Assembly (NCBI GenBank): GCA_003695915.1
Contig: RFGF01000105.1
Coordinates: 1 to 64,000, forward strand
From: Nitrospirota bacterium
GTDB lineage: Bacteria; Nitrospirota; Nitrospiria; Nitrospirales; UBA8639
Reading direction: 5' to 3'
Length of the DNA stretch: 64,000 nucleotides
Shown: in pieces, positions 18,806 to 26,890 of the stretch
How positions within the stretch are numbered: the first letter of the stretch is position 1
Layout: each line of letters starts with the position of its first letter
Translations under genes and position numbers: made by a program
Notes under the pieces: model-generated
Seen by the model: only the letters and a program-made list of their open reading frames with translations
Database searches by the model: none
Told to the model about the DNA's origin: nothing

Positions 18806-19037
18806 GGTGTGTAACTCCTGTATTGATGACTGCATTCGAATTCGTTGTCCTGCTCACAACCATCTCCGTTTTCTGAAGGCATGCCGCACGTGCGGCCGTG
18901 TTGAAGTTCGGAATGGAACCGGTAGACGGAGAAACGGGATATGCCTGAGGAGGGCAACCGACCGGGTCTTCACCATACCGAAATTGTGCGCCTGGTGCAA
19001 TGTTCGATCGAGGCTGTACGCCTTCGGAGGACAACGT

Positions 19038-19118
19038 ATGGCGATGCGCATCGGCGAGGAGGTCAACCCTCGAGCTCTACGATACTCAACGCTGCTTTAC
19101 AGGAGGTCTTGGGCATGA
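19038..19118 (+). CDS. Possible 26-codon leader peptide
   Basis: ATG 19038 has CGGAGG 8 bases upstream and reads 26 codons to TGA 19116-19118, which overlaps an ATG at 19115 as ATGA. That second ATG has its own AGGAGG and is in frame with the secreted protein gene that I start at 19202. The peptide is basic and has no recognised motif. Arrangement suggests translational coupling, but a chance ORF is possible. Confidence 0.3.
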   Translation: MAMRIGEEVNPRALRYSTLLYRRSWA

Positions 19119-19201
19119 TACAACAACCGAGCCAAAGGAACATTGACCACGATGGACGTTGGAGAGGTTTTCAAGAGCCGACGACAACGACGGAGGTGTG
19201 T

Positions 19202-19627
19202 ATGGCGATTCAGGGATCCCGACAGAGTTGGAATGTCTGTATAACAGTTTTGTTATTCCTCATGGGGATGGGCAGTGCAGCGTCGGCCCATCCTTCCGAT
19301 CGCGGTCGCCATGATGACCAGTTGTTTACGATGTCGGCGGGCGGGTTGACGATCGGAGGCCCGGGCATTGCCAGCATCAATACCAACAGCGCGCTCACCA
19401 TTATGGAATTGTCCGGGGGGACGCTCCGAAGCGTGTGCGCGACGGTGTACAACAATGGCCCGGGCATTGCCAGCATTCGGATCGTTCGCTCCGGTGGGGA
19501 TCGGGTCGATAAATTGGTCAAAAACGGTCAGTCCCGCGCGTTGTGCGGAGAAGGCCAGGCCGTCGATGTCGCGTGCGAGGTCCAGGACTGTCATATCTTG
19601 TGGCGGGTTGATCGATTGCCGCAGTGA
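19202..19627 (+). CDS. Small secreted protein of unknown function
   Basis: 141-residue exported protein. A clean signal peptide (residues 1-29, hydrophobic core ITVLLFLMGMGSA, cleavage after ASA) precedes a Gly-rich mature part with two GPGIASI copies and four cysteines in the second half (SVCATVYNN, LCGEG, VACEV, DCHIL) that could form disulfides. GGAGG is close upstream of ATG 19202; an in-frame ATG at 19115 also has a ribosome site and would add 29 residues. The GPGIASI copies arise from an exact 20-base repeat (19358-19377 and 19457-19476). No family recognised. The 365 bases upstream to typA contain a possible leader ORF. Confidence 0.65.
   Translation: MAIQGSRQSWNVCITVLLFLMGMGSAASAHPSDRGRHDDQLFTMSAGGLTIGGPGIASINTNSALTIMELSGGTLRSVCATVYNNGPGIASIRIVRSGGDRVDKLVKNGQSRALCGEGQAVDVACEVQDCHILWRVDRLPQ
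19358..19476 (+). repeat. Exact 20-bp direct repeat inside the secreted-protein gene
   Basis: GGCCCGGGCATTGCCAGCAT occurs at 19358-19377 and again at 19457-19476, 99 bases (33 codons) apart and in the same frame. Recombination between them would delete 33 codons without a frameshift. Confidence 0.85.
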
Positions 19628-19695: not shown

Positions 19696-19736
19696 CGAGC
19701 CTCGTTCGCCCTTTCCGAATGAGGCTCGTTTTTTTA
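19696..19736 (+). terminator. Intrinsic terminator after the secreted-protein gene
   Basis: CGAGCCTCGTTC (19696-19707) pairs with GAATGAGGCTCG (19718-19729) with one mismatch, followed by a run of T to 19735. The stretch from here to about 20280 is about 540 bases without a gene or other feature that I can support. Confidence 0.85.
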
Positions 19737-20280: not shown

Positions 20281-20309
20281 TTGATATCCTAGAGATTCTT
20301 TTATATATA
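20281..20309 (+). promoter_or_regulatory. Sigma-70-like promoter for the outer-membrane protein gene
   Basis: TTGATA (20281-20286) and TATATA (20304-20309) are separated by 17 bases in an AT-rich patch. Transcription would start near 20316, giving an approximately 50-base leader before the ATG at 20366, which has an AAGGAGG ribosome site 6-12 bases upstream. Confidence 0.55.
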
Positions 20310-20381
20310 AGTTGGCGATCAAGATCAGGACTTTTTGATGACTTTTTAAGAAAGGAGGGCTGACGATGGTACACATCATGA

Positions 20382-20417
20382 ACCGACCGACCGACCGACC
20401 GACCGACCGACCGACCG
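20382..20417 (+). repeat. (ACCG)9 tetranucleotide tract near the start of the porin-like gene
   Basis: Nine perfect ACCG copies followed by AC (to 20419). The tract lies between a well-placed ATG (20366, AAGGAGG ribosome site; second in-frame ATG 20378) and the signal peptide of the outer-membrane gene. Read in frame it would encode repeats of Arg-Pro-Thr-Asp. With nine copies the frame from 20366 ends at a TGA at 20444-20446; with seven or ten copies it would join the protein. This is the layout of a phase-variable contingency locus. Confidence 0.9.
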
Positions 20418-20484
20418 ACAACCCAACCCACATTCCTCGTCCCTGAGTCGTATCAGGAAGCCTCGGGTCATTCTCGGGGCGATA

Positions 20485-21144
20485 ATGCTTTTCTTGCTCG
20501 GCAGCGTGGGCATCCTGTCCCAGTCTGTTCGTGCCGAACTCTATGTGGGTGCTCAGGTGGGGGGAAACTTCCCCAGCGATTTTTCTGACGTTAACGGTGT
20601 GGGGGCACGTTCGGGTGTTACACTGAGTGATTTGGATTTAGACAATTCGGTGGTATTCGGGGGCAAGGTCGGGTATTTCTTTCCTTCCATTCCTTGGCTC
20701 GGCATCGAAAGCGAAGTGTACACGGCGACACCCGATCTTCCGTCACAGACCGCTACCGCTTCAGCTAGTGTCACAGTCTTTGGAACCACCATCACGGGCA
20801 GCGGAAGCATAACGTTACCTTCTGCCGATGTCCGGGTGACGACCTGGGCCAACTTGATTCAGGTCCGCTATCCCGGCAGTGCGATCCAGCCGTATGCCGG
20901 AGTGGGATTGGGGGTCTTTTTTGCAGACATCGACGGGACGGGTTTTTCGGACTCCGATACGGCACCGGGGCTGGTCGTCAATACCGGGCTTCGCTGGTAC
21001 GTGACCAAACGCATCGCGGTCTTCGGCGAATACAAATACAATTTTGTCTCGCTGGAATTCGACGATCCGACCGTATCGGTCGAAGGGGATTACAGCGCCC
21101 ACAACGTAGTCGGAGGCATTTCCTTCCATTTCCCAGGCCTCTAA
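20485..21144 (+). CDS. Outer-membrane beta-barrel protein, probably phase-variable
   Basis: From ATG 20485 this reads 219 residues: a signal-peptide core (MLFLLGSVGILSQSVRA), then a beta-barrel of the OmpA-like/OMP_b-brl type (ELYVGAQVGGNF, VFGGKVGYFFP, PYAGVGLGVFFADI, NTGLRWYVTKRIAVFGEYKYNF). ATG 20485 lacks a clear ribosome site and the basic n-region that a signal peptide needs; the codons just upstream in the same frame supply it (SRIRKPRVILGAI). The natural start is therefore likely 20366 or 20378, now separated by nine ACCG repeats and out of frame. One more repeat would give about 40 extra residues in frame. So this allele is probably OFF or poorly expressed, or the repeat count is wrong in the assembly. 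The ligand is unknown. Confidence 0.8.
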   Translation: MLFLLGSVGILSQSVRAELYVGAQVGGNFPSDFSDVNGVGARSGVTLSDLDLDNSVVFGGKVGYFFPSIPWLGIESEVYTATPDLPSQTATASASVTVFGTTITGSGSITLPSADVRVTTWANLIQVRYPGSAIQPYAGVGLGVFFADIDGTGFSDSDTAPGLVVNTGLRWYVTKRIAVFGEYKYNFVSLEFDDPTVSVEGDYSAHNVVGGISFHFPGL

Positions 21145-21207
21145 GACTTTGGAACGAGAGAGCCACTTCTGACCGGTATGCTGCACTCCTCCAGAAGGGC
21201 TCACCAG

Positions 21208-21240
21208 ACGGGGAACGATCGTCAGTCGTTCCCCGTTTTG
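21208..21240 (+). terminator. Intrinsic terminator after the outer-membrane gene
   Basis: ACGGGGAACGA (21208-21218) pairs perfectly with TCGTTCCCCGT (21226-21236) around a 7-base loop, with a T-rich stretch behind it. The 200 bases beyond hold no gene. Confidence 0.85.
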
Positions 21241-21440: not shown

Positions 21441-22115
21441 TTAAGAGGAGGATTCCCTTTCGCGTTCCCCGTGATGCGGAAAGCCGCGATGATGACCATT
21501 GGATCCTTCCATCATGCTCCGAATCCGCTCGTGAACGGCTTTCATACGCCTGCGCTGCTCCTCGGTAAGAACGGCCCGGGCTTGGCGTTTGGCTTTGATC
21601 CCTGCAAGCCGCAGATCGGCCTTCGAAGCATACAGCGCCCTGAGTTTTTCTTCGATCGTGGACAGCGGGGTTTCGTCGTCTCGAAGCAGTTGGTGCAGTT
21701 CCAGATTGGCGACCGCGATATCCGCTTTCAGCCGGATGCGTTGTTTGCGATACGCCGTTTCGATGTCCCGCAGTTTGGCAGCCTGTTCATCGGTGATAGC
21801 CATCGCCTCCTTGAATCGGAGAATGTGGTGGATATACTCGCTCACGCTTTGATGCGGGCCTCGTGCATAGCTCTGCCGTCCGTATCCGTGGCCGGCATAG
21901 CCGTGTGTTTCGTCGCCATAATGGCGGCCATGGGATTGGACATGGGGAGAGCCGTAGCCGGCTTCGTATTCGGAATGACCCGACGAGTCTCCGGGATGAT
22001 GATCCGCCTTATTGGCAAATGTGGGCGATGTCAGCAATACCAGGAAGAGAAGCACAACGCCGGTTCTGAGGGCCGGTCTCCGGATAGATCGATCTGGCTG
22101 GATTCCAACTATCAT
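21441..22115 (-). CDS. Periplasmic Spy/CpxP-like protein, His-rich
   Basis: 224-residue exported protein. The basic start IRRPALR and hydrophobic core GVVLLFLVLLTSPTFA form a signal peptide. A His/Gly/Tyr-rich segment (about residues 35-90) likely binds metal, and the C-terminal half is helical with the LTxxQ-like motifs (AITDEQAAKLRDIE, AVLTEEQRRRM) of Spy/CpxP/ZraP proteins, which act as periplasmic chaperones or zinc-stress sensors. AAAGGAG precedes ATG 22115. It follows fbpC closely (19 bases), so it may be co-transcribed with the iron transporter. Confidence 0.75.
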   Translation of the reverse strand: MIVGIQPDRSIRRPALRTGVVLLFLVLLTSPTFANKADHHPGDSSGHSEYEAGYGSPHVQSHGRHYGDETHGYAGHGYGRQSYARGPHQSVSEYIHHILRFKEAMAITDEQAAKLRDIETAYRKQRIRLKADIAVANLELHQLLRDDETPLSTIEEKLRALYASKADLRLAGIKAKRQARAVLTEEQRRRMKAVHERIRSMMEGSNGHHRGFPHHGERERESSS

Positions 22116-22134
22116 GACTATTGTCTCCTTTCGA

Positions 22135-23292
22135 TTATCGCGTGGAAGATTGTTCGAATAAGACGGTATGGGTGGCAATAATCTCTAGTTCGACAGCCGT
22201 CCCGATTGCGTACACGTGCGTCGAGGGTTGTGCACAATGGATGTGACGTCCCGATGGGAGACGAATCCTGTACAGATTTTCCGAGCCTCGGAATTGTCGG
22301 TATTCGATTCGGGCTGTTCCGTGACCGACACGAACAATACGGATGTCGTCCGGTCTGATCATCACGAGGACATGATTTCCGCCTTGATACGTTCCTTGAC
22401 GTGGAAACTCGCCGATTTCTGTCATGACTTTTCCGTTTTCAATGACCCCGGGGATGAAGTCCGCTTGCCCAACGAATTCCGCAACGAACGGACAATTGGG
22501 CAAATGGTAGAGTGTTTCTGGAGCGTCGCATTGAACGAGGCGCCCCCCATGCAGCACGGCGACTTGGTCGGCCATCGCAAAGGCTTCATCGTGATCGTGG
22601 GTCACCAGGACCGTCGTGGTTCGAGTCCCCCGCAGAAGCTGAAGCAATTCTTCCCGCATTTTGACCGTCATGTCGGGATCGAGGTTGCTGAAGGGTTCGT
22701 CCAACAACAAGAGGACGGGATTGGGGGCTAAGGCTCTGGCCAAGGCCACGCGTTGACGCTGCCCGCCGGAGAGTTCATGGGGATAACGATGCTCCAAGCC
22801 CTTCAATCCGATGAGGTCGAGCATGATTCGGAGGCGCTCGCGCCTCGCTGCTGCCGGCCAGCGGTGGAGACCGAAGGTGATGTTGTCCGCGACGCACAGA
22901 TGAGGAAACAGCGCATAGTCTTGAAACACCATGCCTACGCGCCGTTCCTCGCTGGGAACATGGTGCTGCGGTGAGGACACCAGGCGCCCGTTGAGGCGAA
23001 TCTCCCCGTACGTCACGCGCTCGAATCCGGCAATCGCTCGCAAGGTCGTGGTCTTGCCGCATCCGGACGGACCCAAAAGACACAAGATGTCGCCTTGAGC
23101 GGCTGTCAGGGACATCGCCTCAATGGCGGGTCGTTGCGGTTCATAGGCACACGTCACCGCTCGGAGTTCGAGGACGGTGGGGCGCGTCGAGGAAGAAGCC
23201 AGGGGCTGGGTGTTCGCTTCCGAAATCGGGGATGCAAAGGTTCGAATATCCAGAGTGGATGGCGCCGGCTGAGAAGAAGTTGGGCTGTTCAT
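22135..23292 (-). CDS. fbpC: Ferric-iron ABC transporter ATPase (FbpC-like)
   Basis: 385-residue ATPase that drives import through FbpB. Walker A is GPSGCGKTT, Q-loop FQDYALFPH, signature LSGGQRQRVALARAL, Walker B LLLLDEPFSNLDP, switch histidine VLVTHDHDEAF. The C-terminal regulatory part (about residues 285-385) contains IRPDDIRIV, a TOBE-type domain. A 40-residue Ser/Pro-rich extension precedes the core. Polyamine/sulfate relatives look alike; the neighbouring fbpA/fbpB and fur favour iron. Confidence 0.9.
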   Translation of the reverse strand: MNSPTSSQPAPSTLDIRTFASPISEANTQPLASSSTRPTVLELRAVTCAYEPQRPAIEAMSLTAAQGDILCLLGPSGCGKTTTLRAIAGFERVTYGEIRLNGRLVSSPQHHVPSEERRVGMVFQDYALFPHLCVADNITFGLHRWPAAARRERLRIMLDLIGLKGLEHRYPHELSGGQRQRVALARALAPNPVLLLLDEPFSNLDPDMTVKMREELLQLLRGTRTTTVLVTHDHDEAFAMADQVAVLHGGRLVQCDAPETLYHLPNCPFVAEFVGQADFIPGVIENGKVMTEIGEFPRQGTYQGGNHVLVMIRPDDIRIVRVGHGTARIEYRQFRGSENLYRIRLPSGRHIHCAQPSTHVYAIGTAVELEIIATHTVLFEQSSTR

Positions 23293-23338
23293 CAGAGTTT
23301 AGGCACAGTGAAGGATCCCGGCGTATTGTATGGGAAGA

Positions 23339-24931
23339 TTACGAAATCTGCCAATGGTTTCTCGAAAGCAGGAACACGATCGGCGCCGTGACCAGGATGA
23401 TCAAGAGGGCTGGCGGCGCGGCCAACTGATAGAGTTCCTCGCTGGCTTCCAACCAAATCCGAACAGCCAAAGTATCGAACCCGACGGGACGCAGGAGCAA
23501 TGTCGCCGGCAACTCTTTCATGGCTTGGATAAACATCAGCATCCAAGCCACGAAAAACCCGCCACGCACCAATGGAAACGTAATCCGTCTGAACACGTGA
23601 AGTGCTCGATGCCCTAGACTTCGTGCCGCTTCCTCGAGATTCGGCGCAACCTGGTGGAGCGACGATTCCATGGCCTGGAGACCGGCTGGCAGAAAGTGAA
23701 TCAGATAGGCGAGGATTAACACAACGACGGTGCCATACAGAAACGGCACTCCTTGCATAAAGACCATCATCAAGGCCAGTGCAGCAACGGGACCAGGCAG
23801 GACATAACCCGAATAGGCTCCCTGTAAACACAAAATCGTCCACTTCGAGGGATACCGGCTCGCGAGATATGCGACCGGAGTTCCGAGACATAATGCCAAT
23901 GTGGCGGCGGTCGCCGACAGTGTCAAACTGTTCCACAGATACTCGAGGAAGGTGCCGCTGACCGTGCCAGCCGAAAGGCCGGTCACGGTCCAGTACGCCA
24001 GGTATGCTGTCGGAAGTGCAAAGGCTCCGATGAACACGATCGCCAAATACCCGGTAATCATCGTTGTTTTGATCGATGAGCAGGGGAATGGCCGTAAGGG
24101 ACGCTGATGTCCTGTCGTTTGATAAAATCGGCTTTTTCGTCGAAACCAGCGTTCAGCCGATAAAAAGGCGATGGCGAATGCGACGAGCAAGAGGCTGAGG
24201 GCCGAAGCAGCATGGTAATCGAACCGTCCTGAAATTTGCTGATACACGGCATAGGTGAACGTTTGAAAGCGCAACAGGGAAACCGCACCGAAATCGGACA
24301 CGACGTACAGCGTGACTAAAAACAATCCGGCCACGAGGGCCGGTCGAATCAACGGCAACGAAACGAAGAAAAATGTTCGCCATTTCGATGCCCCGGTCAC
24401 GCGAGCCGCTTCCTCGTACGAGACGTTAAAGGTCAGAAACGCGGATCGACTCAACAGATAGACAAATGGAAAGGTATTGAGCGTCATGACGAGCAACGCC
24501 CCCCAAAACGTGTACGGGGAGAATACACGAGCCTCGGGTCCGGCCAAAGCTTGCCAGATGCGTTCGATCGGTCCGCCGAGGTCCAATAAGAACGTGTACA
24601 CATAAGCTAGAACATACGAGGGAATCGCCAGTGGAAGCACGAGTGCCCATTCCCAAAATCCTCGTCCACGAAACGTATACCGTGTCAAGAGCCAAGCCGT
24701 AGAGATGCCTAGACACAGAGTAACCAATGCCACCCCTAGCGCCAGGGAAATGGTATTCAGGGCCAACTCTGGCACACGTGTGTTCCACAAACGCTCCCAG
24801 ACTGCGGCATCGACGGTGATGGCGGAGTAGGTGACGTACAACAGAGGGAGTGCGATGAGTCCGGCGATAAGGAATACAATCGCCGAGAGCGGCATCGGAG
24901 CCATCTGGCGGACAAAGACGGACATGATCAT
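23339..24931 (-). CDS. fbpB: Ferric-iron ABC transporter permease (FbpB-like)
   Basis: 530-residue inner-membrane permease with two fused halves of six helices each, the typical FbpB/SfuB layout. The two EAA loops are recognisable as YEEAARVTGASKWRTFFFVSLPLIRPAL in half one and LEEAARSLGHRALHVFRRITFPLVRGGF in half two. ATG 24931 lies 4 bases after the fbpA stop; a TTG at 24949 would overlap fbpA. No good ribosome site is seen, which suggests translational coupling to fbpA. Confidence 0.92.
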   Translation of the reverse strand: MIMSVFVRQMAPMPLSAIVFLIAGLIALPLLYVTYSAITVDAAVWERLWNTRVPELALNTISLALGVALVTLCLGISTAWLLTRYTFRGRGFWEWALVLPLAIPSYVLAYVYTFLLDLGGPIERIWQALAGPEARVFSPYTFWGALLVMTLNTFPFVYLLSRSAFLTFNVSYEEAARVTGASKWRTFFFVSLPLIRPALVAGLFLVTLYVVSDFGAVSLLRFQTFTYAVYQQISGRFDYHAASALSLLLVAFAIAFLSAERWFRRKSRFYQTTGHQRPLRPFPCSSIKTTMITGYLAIVFIGAFALPTAYLAYWTVTGLSAGTVSGTFLEYLWNSLTLSATAATLALCLGTPVAYLASRYPSKWTILCLQGAYSGYVLPGPVAALALMMVFMQGVPFLYGTVVVLILAYLIHFLPAGLQAMESSLHQVAPNLEEAARSLGHRALHVFRRITFPLVRGGFFVAWMLMFIQAMKELPATLLLRPVGFDTLAVRIWLEASEELYQLAAPPALLIILVTAPIVFLLSRNHWQIS

Positions 24932-24935
24932 GTGA

Positions 24936-26066
24936 TTATCGGAGGCCAACTTGTTCGATCAGACGCATGGTGGGATCGCGCAATTCGGACAATCGCGTCA
25001 AAGGGACCTGCGCGACATGGAAGCTGTCTCGCGGCGGGAGCGCGGGATCGGCTTCGACTTCCGGATGGAGGGGATATTCTTTGTTTAAAGAGGCGAATAG
25101 GCGTTGTCCGGCTTGAGACACCAAGAATTGCACAAGCCGTTTGGCCGCGTCTACGTGCTTGGCATGGGCCGTGACACCAACACCGGCCACGTTCATAATC
25201 ATGCCCATACCGCCTTCTTCTTGATCAGTCAGGATGGGAGTAATCGGTGCCTGGGGATGTTTGGCCAAATGCCGATAGATATAATAATGGTTGACAAGAC
25301 CCAAGGCCACCTTGCCTTTCGCGACGGCATCGACGATTTGGCGGTTCTTGCTGTACACCTGATTGCCCGCATTCGCTTTGATGCCTTCCAGAAATTTCTT
25401 GGCCACGGCTTCGCCTTTGAGGGCGAGAATCACCGATACGCCAGCCTGAAGATACTCGCTGACGGCATTAGGAATCGCGAGTTGTCCTTTCCAACGAGGA
25501 TCGGCCACATCCAAAATCGAGGAGATCTCATGGGATTGCACCCGTTGCGTGTTGGCCACTACGACCCAAATCCGACCCGACAACCCGATCCAGCTATTGT
25601 CGGGGGCGCGGAAAGCCGGTGGAATGTTCCGCTCCACTTCCTTCATGGAAATCGGCCGCAACAGCCGAAGCTCGCGGGCCCGTTCCAGTGTGCCGGCATC
25701 GTTGGTGATGAAGACATCGGCTGGCGTATTCGGCCCTTCGATGCGCAATCGATTGACCAGTTCCGTGGAGCCTGATGTCAGCAGTTGAATGGTGATTCCG
25801 GTTTTGTCTTCGAATACATCCAGCACGGGTTTGATCAAACGCTCGGCTCGCCCTGAATAGACCACTAGCGACTCGGCCGCATAGCTAGCAGTCGGCCATG
25901 CCCACAGACCGATCACGATGGTCCAGAAAATCACGACACCGGTGCACATCCATCGTGTATTCAGACGTGTATTCAGAGCGCGGCCTCGTTGCAGTGCGCG
26001 AACGCCAAAAAAGAAAGAGCGGATTGTTGAACCGCCAGCCAAGGGCAGGCATAAGAACTGTTGCAT
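24936..26066 (-). CDS. fbpA: Ferric-iron ABC transporter substrate-binding protein (FbpA-like)
   Basis: 376-residue periplasmic binding protein, transferrin-like fold. The hydrophobic signal core is VVIFWTIVIGLWAW with likely cleavage after SYAA, then ESLVVYSGRAERLIKPVLD. The iron-binding Tyr pair is suggested by GLVNHYYIYRH. ATG 26066 gives an unusually long n-region of about 40 residues that includes a RLNT repeat; ATG 25949 would give a normal signal peptide, so the true start is uncertain. It is downstream of fur on the same strand, with a Fur-like box in the gap. Confidence 0.88.
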   Translation of the reverse strand: MQQFLCLPLAGGSTIRSFFFGVRALQRGRALNTRLNTRWMCTGVVIFWTIVIGLWAWPTASYAAESLVVYSGRAERLIKPVLDVFEDKTGITIQLLTSGSTELVNRLRIEGPNTPADVFITNDAGTLERARELRLLRPISMKEVERNIPPAFRAPDNSWIGLSGRIWVVVANTQRVQSHEISSILDVADPRWKGQLAIPNAVSEYLQAGVSVILALKGEAVAKKFLEGIKANAGNQVYSKNRQIVDAVAKGKVALGLVNHYYIYRHLAKHPQAPITPILTDQEEGGMGMIMNVAGVGVTAHAKHVDAAKRLVQFLVSQAGQRLFASLNKEYPLHPEVEADPALPPRDSFHVAQVPLTRLSELRDPTMRLIEQVGLR

Positions 26067-26121
26067 GGAGCACCAGCCTTTCTTTCCCTAAAGCCTCCTG
26101 ATGGAAGCAGATGCAAAAATG

Positions 26122-26140
26122 TGAAAATGATACTGATTTG
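26122..26140 (-). promoter_or_regulatory. Possible Fur box upstream of fbpA
   Basis: The AT-rich segment TGAAAATGATACTGATTTG, taken on the plus strand, matches the 19-base Fur consensus at roughly 12-13 positions by eye and includes the GATA/ATT-type core. It lies 56-74 bases upstream of ATG 26066 and directly downstream of the fur stop. Fur control of fbpABC is therefore plausible but not shown. Confidence 0.4.
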
Positions 26141-26178
26141 AGATTTCAATTATAGATTATTAAAAAAATAGGAGGGCG

Positions 26179-26619
26179 TCAACTTCGACATTTGGCACAG
26201 AGGCCATACAGCTCGAGCTTATGGGTCTGGATGGTAAAACCGTTCTGTGCGGCCACTTCTTCTTGGAGTTGTTCGATTTGGCAATTTTGGAATTCGACAA
26301 TTTTCCCGCACGACGTGCAGATCAAGTGATCATGATGCCCTTTATGAGCCACATTGTCGAAAAGCGTTTGCGAACCAAAATGGCGTTCCTGCGCCATGCC
26401 GGTTTCACACAGGAGTTTCAAGGTACGGTAAATCGTGGCGAGGCCGATGTGAGGGTCTTTCTTCGAGAGAATATGATAGAGCTGTTCGGCTGTCACATGT
26501 TCCATTTTTAAAAACGCGTTCAAGATCTGCTCCCGCTGGCGGGTCAGTTTTAAATTGTGTTTGGCCAGGTGTTGTTTCAGTAGCTCGAGTTCTTTTCCCG
26601 CTTTGGCCATGGTCGGCAT
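26179..26619 (-). CDS. fur: Ferric uptake regulator Fur
   Basis: 146-residue iron-responsive repressor. DNA-binding helix: KLTRQREQILNAFLKMEHVTAEQLYHIL ... IGLATIYRTLKLLCETG. Metal sites include HKGHHDHLICTSCGKIVEF and the C-terminal CAKC, so both zinc cysteine pairs are present. AAGGAG precedes ATG 26619; an in-frame codon 15 bases upstream is less likely. It directly precedes the ferric transporter genes. Zur or PerR cannot be fully excluded from sequence alone. Confidence 0.9.
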   Translation of the reverse strand: MPTMAKAGKELELLKQHLAKHNLKLTRQREQILNAFLKMEHVTAEQLYHILSKKDPHIGLATIYRTLKLLCETGMAQERHFGSQTLFDNVAHKGHHDHLICTSCGKIVEFQNCQIEQLQEEVAAQNGFTIQTHKLELYGLCAKCRS

Positions 26620-26890
26620 CGCAGCTCCTTCCAAAGAGCACGTATTAAACCGGAAAGAAGAAAGCGGGTCAAGAGAGCAACCGACACGCGAGATCCTGAC
26701 TGAGGGTTCGATGCCTGTCTGCGAATGTCCTCGTCTTTGACAGATTTGGTTGAAGGGCAGGCGGCTTCGAACGTTGACGACTTCCGGAAAAGGCGTCTAA
26801 GCTCGGATTGACAAATCTCGCACGCCGAAAAAGCGAGGCGAGCAATAGAGTTAAACTGTGTGAGCAAACGTCGAAGAGGAGCAGAGGGCC

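Follow-up and report, generated by a model that had tools for sequence, protein, structure and literature searches.

A candidate slipped-strand switch at the start of an outer-membrane barrel gene in a Nitrospirota bacterium

The barrel gene and its start region

The window analysed here (64,000 nucleotides of contig RFGF01000105.1, Nitrospirota assembly GCA_003695915.1) contains a gene for an outer-membrane barrel, with a perfect tetranucleotide repeat tract at its 5' end. The features of the locus are the following.

19696-19728: terminator-like hairpin upstream of the barrel gene (pattern match only)
20353-20358, + strand: ribosome-binding site AGGAGG, 7 nt 5' of ATG 20366 (read from the sequence)
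20366-20446, + strand: frame from ATG 20366 at the nine copies assembled, 26 aa and TGA 20444-20446, the predicted OFF product
20382-20419, + strand: perfect (ACCG)9.5 tract, encoding RPTD repeats in every frame
20446-20538, + strand: codons, in the barrel frame, of the predicted signal peptide SRIRKPRVILGAIMLFLLGSVGILSQSVRA, followed by ELYVG (alignment to homologous signal peptides; hydropathy and charge count)
20485-21144, + strand: ORF of 219 aa for an outer-membrane barrel of the 8-stranded type, as expected from a gene caller (Pfam, homologues, profile)
21206-21238, + strand: terminator-like hairpin 3' of the barrel gene (pattern match only)

A match to the Pfam family PF13505 (OMP_b-brl) covers nearly all of the barrel protein (E 6e-15; 56.3 bits against a cut-off of 28.7), and the mature barrel begins near position 20536. 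A profile built from thirteen homologues matches the solved NspA structure 1p4t (E 4e-6); its matches to OmpA and Opa60 are weak. As the Opa60 match is partial and at E 0.04, the protein was not assigned to the Neisseria Opa family proper. The single-sequence structure model has a mean pLDDT of 33. Alignment with homologues showed that the ORF is intact from end to end and that the residues typical of the family are conserved. A member at E <= 1e-28 is found in 107 of the 236 genomes of the order, including the present one; the best homologues in the order are 40-49% identical to the barrel, and a search for its relatives in the named genome-contig collection found no closer copy.

With terminator-like hairpins on both sides, the barrel gene probably stands alone as a transcription unit. 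Upstream of it, positions 18941-19627 (+ strand) code for a predicted small secreted protein without Pfam match, and downstream, positions 21441-22178 (- strand) code for a Metal_resist/LTXXQ (CpxP/Spy-like) protein. Judging by eye from the translations, the region 22135-26634 (- strand) harbours likely genes for ABC-type iron(III) uptake (ATPase, permease and binding protein) and for a Fur-like regulator.

The tract lies within the 5' coding region, separated by 16 nt from ATG 20366. Translation from this codon yields MVHIMNRPTDRPTDRPTDNPTHIPRP before the stop at TGA 20444-20446. The barrel frame is offset by two bases from that of ATG 20366 and runs without a stop from 20350 to 21141; with nine copies, the signal-peptide codons that it includes are thus not in phase with ATG 20366. 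The number of ACCG copies sets the frame of the gene. Seven and ten copies give products of 256 and 260 aa fused to the barrel, with a complete signal peptide, whereas the computed products of 6, 8, 9 and 11 copies are 22, 72, 26 and 76 aa long, and 12 copies also lead to an early stop. An earlier note on this DNA had described the ribosome site, ATG 20366, the tract, TGA 20444-20446 and the spacing of 119 nt between ATG 20366 and ATG 20485. All of them were found in the sequence, the tract measuring 9.5 units. A recount of the frames by script agreed exactly with the arithmetic of that note, in which nine copies are OFF, ten ON and eight OFF, and the gain of one unit or the loss of two fuses the frames.

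In most of the homologues examined, the ribosome site is directly followed by the start codon and then by a signal peptide of ~22-35 residues, and their leaders resemble that of the window (AAGGAGACTGAC-ATG in L004, AAGGAGGCTCAC-ATG in L005). Here, the segment that aligns with the homologous signal peptides begins ~80 bases after ATG 20366, in a different frame. Since the ribosome site precedes ATG 20366 and the signal-peptide match lies that much further on, the tract and its flanks are, as judged from these alignments, an additional segment that separates the start codon from the signal peptide. The other start codon to consider, ATG 20485, is the sole ATG in the barrel frame. It is not preceded by a ribosome site of similar quality, and its product would have a leader of 17 residues with no basic residue before the hydrophobic core. 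By contrast, the charge count gives net +5 before the core for the in-phase product from ATG 20366; the earlier note had proposed that the upstream in-frame codons supply the basic n-region missing from the ATG 20485 product. The poor features of ATG 20485, together with the homologues starting directly before their signal peptides, support ATG 20366 as the probable real start, and hence an OFF state at nine copies. A start called automatically at ATG 20485 would then be wrong for the barrel gene.

Repeat tracts in the genome and in homologous genes

The length of the (ACCG)9.5 tract is far beyond chance expectation. None of 60 fourth-order Markov simulations of 64 kb produced a period-4 run longer than 16 bp, whereas the observed tract measures 38 bp, and Tandem Repeats Finder gave the tract the top score in the window (76, all others being <=51). 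In a repeat census covering 693 kb, or 18.7% of the genome, the second-longest tetranucleotide run was 13 bp, the longest homopolymer 8 and the longest dinucleotide run 10 bp. A search of the genome for (ACCG)5 or longer found none besides the tract at 20382-20419. One further genome among the 236 of the order (G034) contains (ACCG)5; there, an imperfect array lies 5' of the gene for a secreted protein, within GC-rich sequence, and we rejected it as a related case since its context is unrelated. Literature searches combining ACCG with phase variation returned no paper, and those on Nitrospira and phase variation returned nothing relevant at the level of titles and abstracts.

We inspected ~140 homologous gene starts (45 loci and 100 in a second set, not all of them distinct genes). 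The tract is absent from all of them. A long repeat was present in one of these starts, that of G170, a single-contig genome from another family of the order, whose homologous barrel gene (L098:1477-2133) harbours (TC)8 in frame within its signal-peptide codons. This is the layout of Helicobacter pylori oipA (PMC10564699). The nearest homologue of this gene, 82% identical and found in G163, is devoid of (TC)8. With a single further case among ~140 starts, repeats as a trait of the family were rejected. We also rejected a general enrichment, within the order, of (TC)8 following an ATG, as a reversed control gave similar counts, and the other matches to this pattern in the order are incidental or unclear. 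Because such patterns are no commoner than in the control, the G170 gene lends weak support to a switch at the present locus.

A different repeat was seen in G003, a genome of the same family as the present one. There, (GA)12 (contig L114, about 1515-1538, complementary strand) lies upstream of a gene for a secreted protein, MFRFLTASLLILLTLTAVFVFLGEPAHAQ, ~45 bases from its ATG; this might be another repeat-controlled gene.

A candidate translational switch and its alternatives

We consider it likely, from the sequence evidence, that the locus is a working translational contingency switch of the Opa/Hgp/OipA type, operating by slipped-strand mispairing and assembled in its OFF state. Ribosomes would initiate at ATG 20366, and slipped-strand mispairing would add or remove units of the (ACCG)n located between the start codon and the signal peptide. 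At copy numbers equal to 1 modulo 3 (7, 10 and so on), the start codon would be in frame and the barrel produced with an N-terminal extension, made of the RPTD repeats and a linker, that would be cut off together with the signal peptide. With 8, 9, 11 and comparable copy numbers, ribosomes would terminate 26-76 codons into the frame and the barrel would not be exported; the assembled genome, with nine copies, would represent this OFF state. The proposal supposes appreciable slippage of the tract, a cell surface that changes with switching, and selection for the switch, for instance by phages that use the barrel as their receptor. By the standards of Haemophilus influenzae the tract is short, so slippage may be slow.

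The rarity of the tract, the frames, the intact and conserved barrel, the starts of the homologues, the H. influenzae-like position of the tract and the length variation of similar tracts in phages (described below) all fit such a switch. The claim of the earlier note, a phase-variable outer-membrane protein, thus holds in part: the anatomy, the frame logic, the protein class and the homologue starts are consistent with slipped-strand switching of translation and an OFF state in the assembly, whereas variation in copy number is a prediction, drawn from the one genome that carries the locus. Since the ~140 homologous starts are without the ACCG tract, the switch would be young and specific to this lineage.

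In the opa genes of Neisseria, the repeat is placed in the leader, inside the signal-peptide codons. Like the present tract, (CTCTT)n sets the frame of an outer-membrane barrel gene (PMC6735796), but it is a pentanucleotide, in a multigene family of a host-adapted organism. In H. pylori, the number of (CT) units at the 5' end of oipA similarly switches an outer-membrane protein (PMC10564699); that repeat is a dinucleotide and the protein a barrel of another family, in a pathogen, and the ACCG tract lies before the signal peptide rather than inside it. The tetranucleotide tracts of H. influenzae are at or just after the start codon, with two exceptions, and mostly encode hydrophilic peptides, and the survey describing them cites a rate of unit gain or loss near 1e-4 per generation (PMC2651432). 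The RPTD repeat fits this hydrophilic pattern. Both hgp (CCAA)n and licA (CAAT)n resemble the present locus in having the tract just after the start, frame-dependent ON and OFF states and a hydrophilic repeat peptide, and hgp encodes outer-membrane receptors, a surface location akin to that of the present barrel (PMC2651432). The unit differs from ACCG, however, and the barrel described here is small and of another family. Furthermore, H. influenzae has about a dozen tracts per genome against the single one found here.

The main rival explanation is a recent expansion, neutral or damaging, that became stuck at nine copies; the gene would be knocked out and bound to decay, with no switch. The absence of the tract from every homologue examined is in keeping with this, as are the out-of-frame assembled state and the fact that a single allele, with nine copies, is known. 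Nevertheless, the barrel ORF is intact at full length with its family residues conserved, and a tract this long implies past slipping, so that reversible changes would be expected whether selected or not. We therefore regard a stuck expansion as unlikely. Constant production of the barrel from ATG 20485 or from a non-ATG codon such as CTG 20443, with the 26-codon frame acting as a leader peptide, is quite improbable. It would make use of the only ATG in the barrel frame, and as the upstream frame stops 38 nt before that codon, reinitiation is possible in principle. Against it, neither 20485 nor 20443 is preceded by a comparable ribosome site, the product from 20485 is devoid of the basic n-region present in nearly all aligned homologues, and the RNA structure of the leader is unremarkable (z 0.71).

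The locus is known from one assembly, and nine copies is the consensus count of that assembly. In a draft of 135 contigs, this count might be an assembly or sequencing error, the true tract being in frame with 10 or 7 copies. We give this very little credence: ordinary short reads are long enough to cross a tract of 38 bp, which means that the most frequent allele should have become the consensus, and even if the count were wrong, the locus would stay a candidate switch, merely assembled in the wrong state. Lastly, programmed ribosomal frameshifting might couple the 26-codon frame to the barrel frame, as the two overlap and a -1 shift would connect them. The overlap, inspected by eye, contains no slippery heptamer, no significant RNA structure was found, and none of the homologues needs such a shift, which makes this explanation extremely improbable.

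Most known cases of surface proteins switched by repeats come from host-adapted pathogens and commensals. With the mechanism itself already known, the novelty of the proposed switch would lie in its repeat unit, its gene, its lineage and its presence in a genome that is otherwise repeat-poor in its sampled part. If the proposal is true, such a tract in a lineage outside those groups would suggest that phage predation or pressures other than host immunity can select the same device. The present genome offers one defined locus for checking switching from reads.

ACCG tracts at other gene starts

We scanned 84,980 genomes and IMG/VR for the pattern AGGAG-ATG-(ACCG)5. The genomes yielded one match, in the Nitrospinota MAG UBA9963 (contig DNJG01000106.1, L068:4325-6481), with AGGAG, ATG, ~8.5 ACCG units that include two N, and then the N-terminus of a membrane protein, a layout like that of the present locus. 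The product is a PAS/HAMP sensor of 718 aa rather than an outer-membrane protein, and the tract is apparently in frame with it (ON), in contrast with the OFF state assembled here. The sensor also has an own-looking start, MRFKIRTKLL, 27 codons further in.

The matches in IMG/VR are four related phage contigs (L071, L072, L074 and L075), and the copy numbers among them are 7.25, 8.25, 9.5 and 10.25. L072 and L074 are one ACCG unit apart and share 59 of 60 downstream bases, and the 60 upstream bases of L071 and L072 are identical. ACCG tracts placed after a ribosome site and ATG thus change length in nature, as these comparisons of phage contigs indicate; the demonstration is for the phages and not for the tract at 20382-20419. 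The phage leader AAAGGAGGGGTTGACATGGTATACA resembles that of the window, AAAGGAGGGCTGACGATGGTACACA. We rejected acquisition of the tract from a phage and claim no homology between the two leaders, because the window's own homologues share this layout, as in L004.

In all three settings, namely the outer-membrane protein described here, the UBA9963 sensor and a frame of the phage tail module, the tract is located between the ribosome site with its ATG and the functional N-terminus. Start-proximal ACCG tracts might, tentatively, form a sparse but recurrent class of switches outside the classic pathogens, although we hold this to be rather doubtful.

The phage tracts are found in the tail module, where a conserved leader, AAAGGAGGGG-TTGACATGGTATACAGAACCAAGATAGCCTTG, precedes the 7.25-10.25 ACCG units, and an LRR_5 protein is encoded nearby in L072. 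Their upstream flanks are conserved and their downstream flanks partly replaced. The phage tract is possibly a contingency locus of the phage or a point of module exchange.
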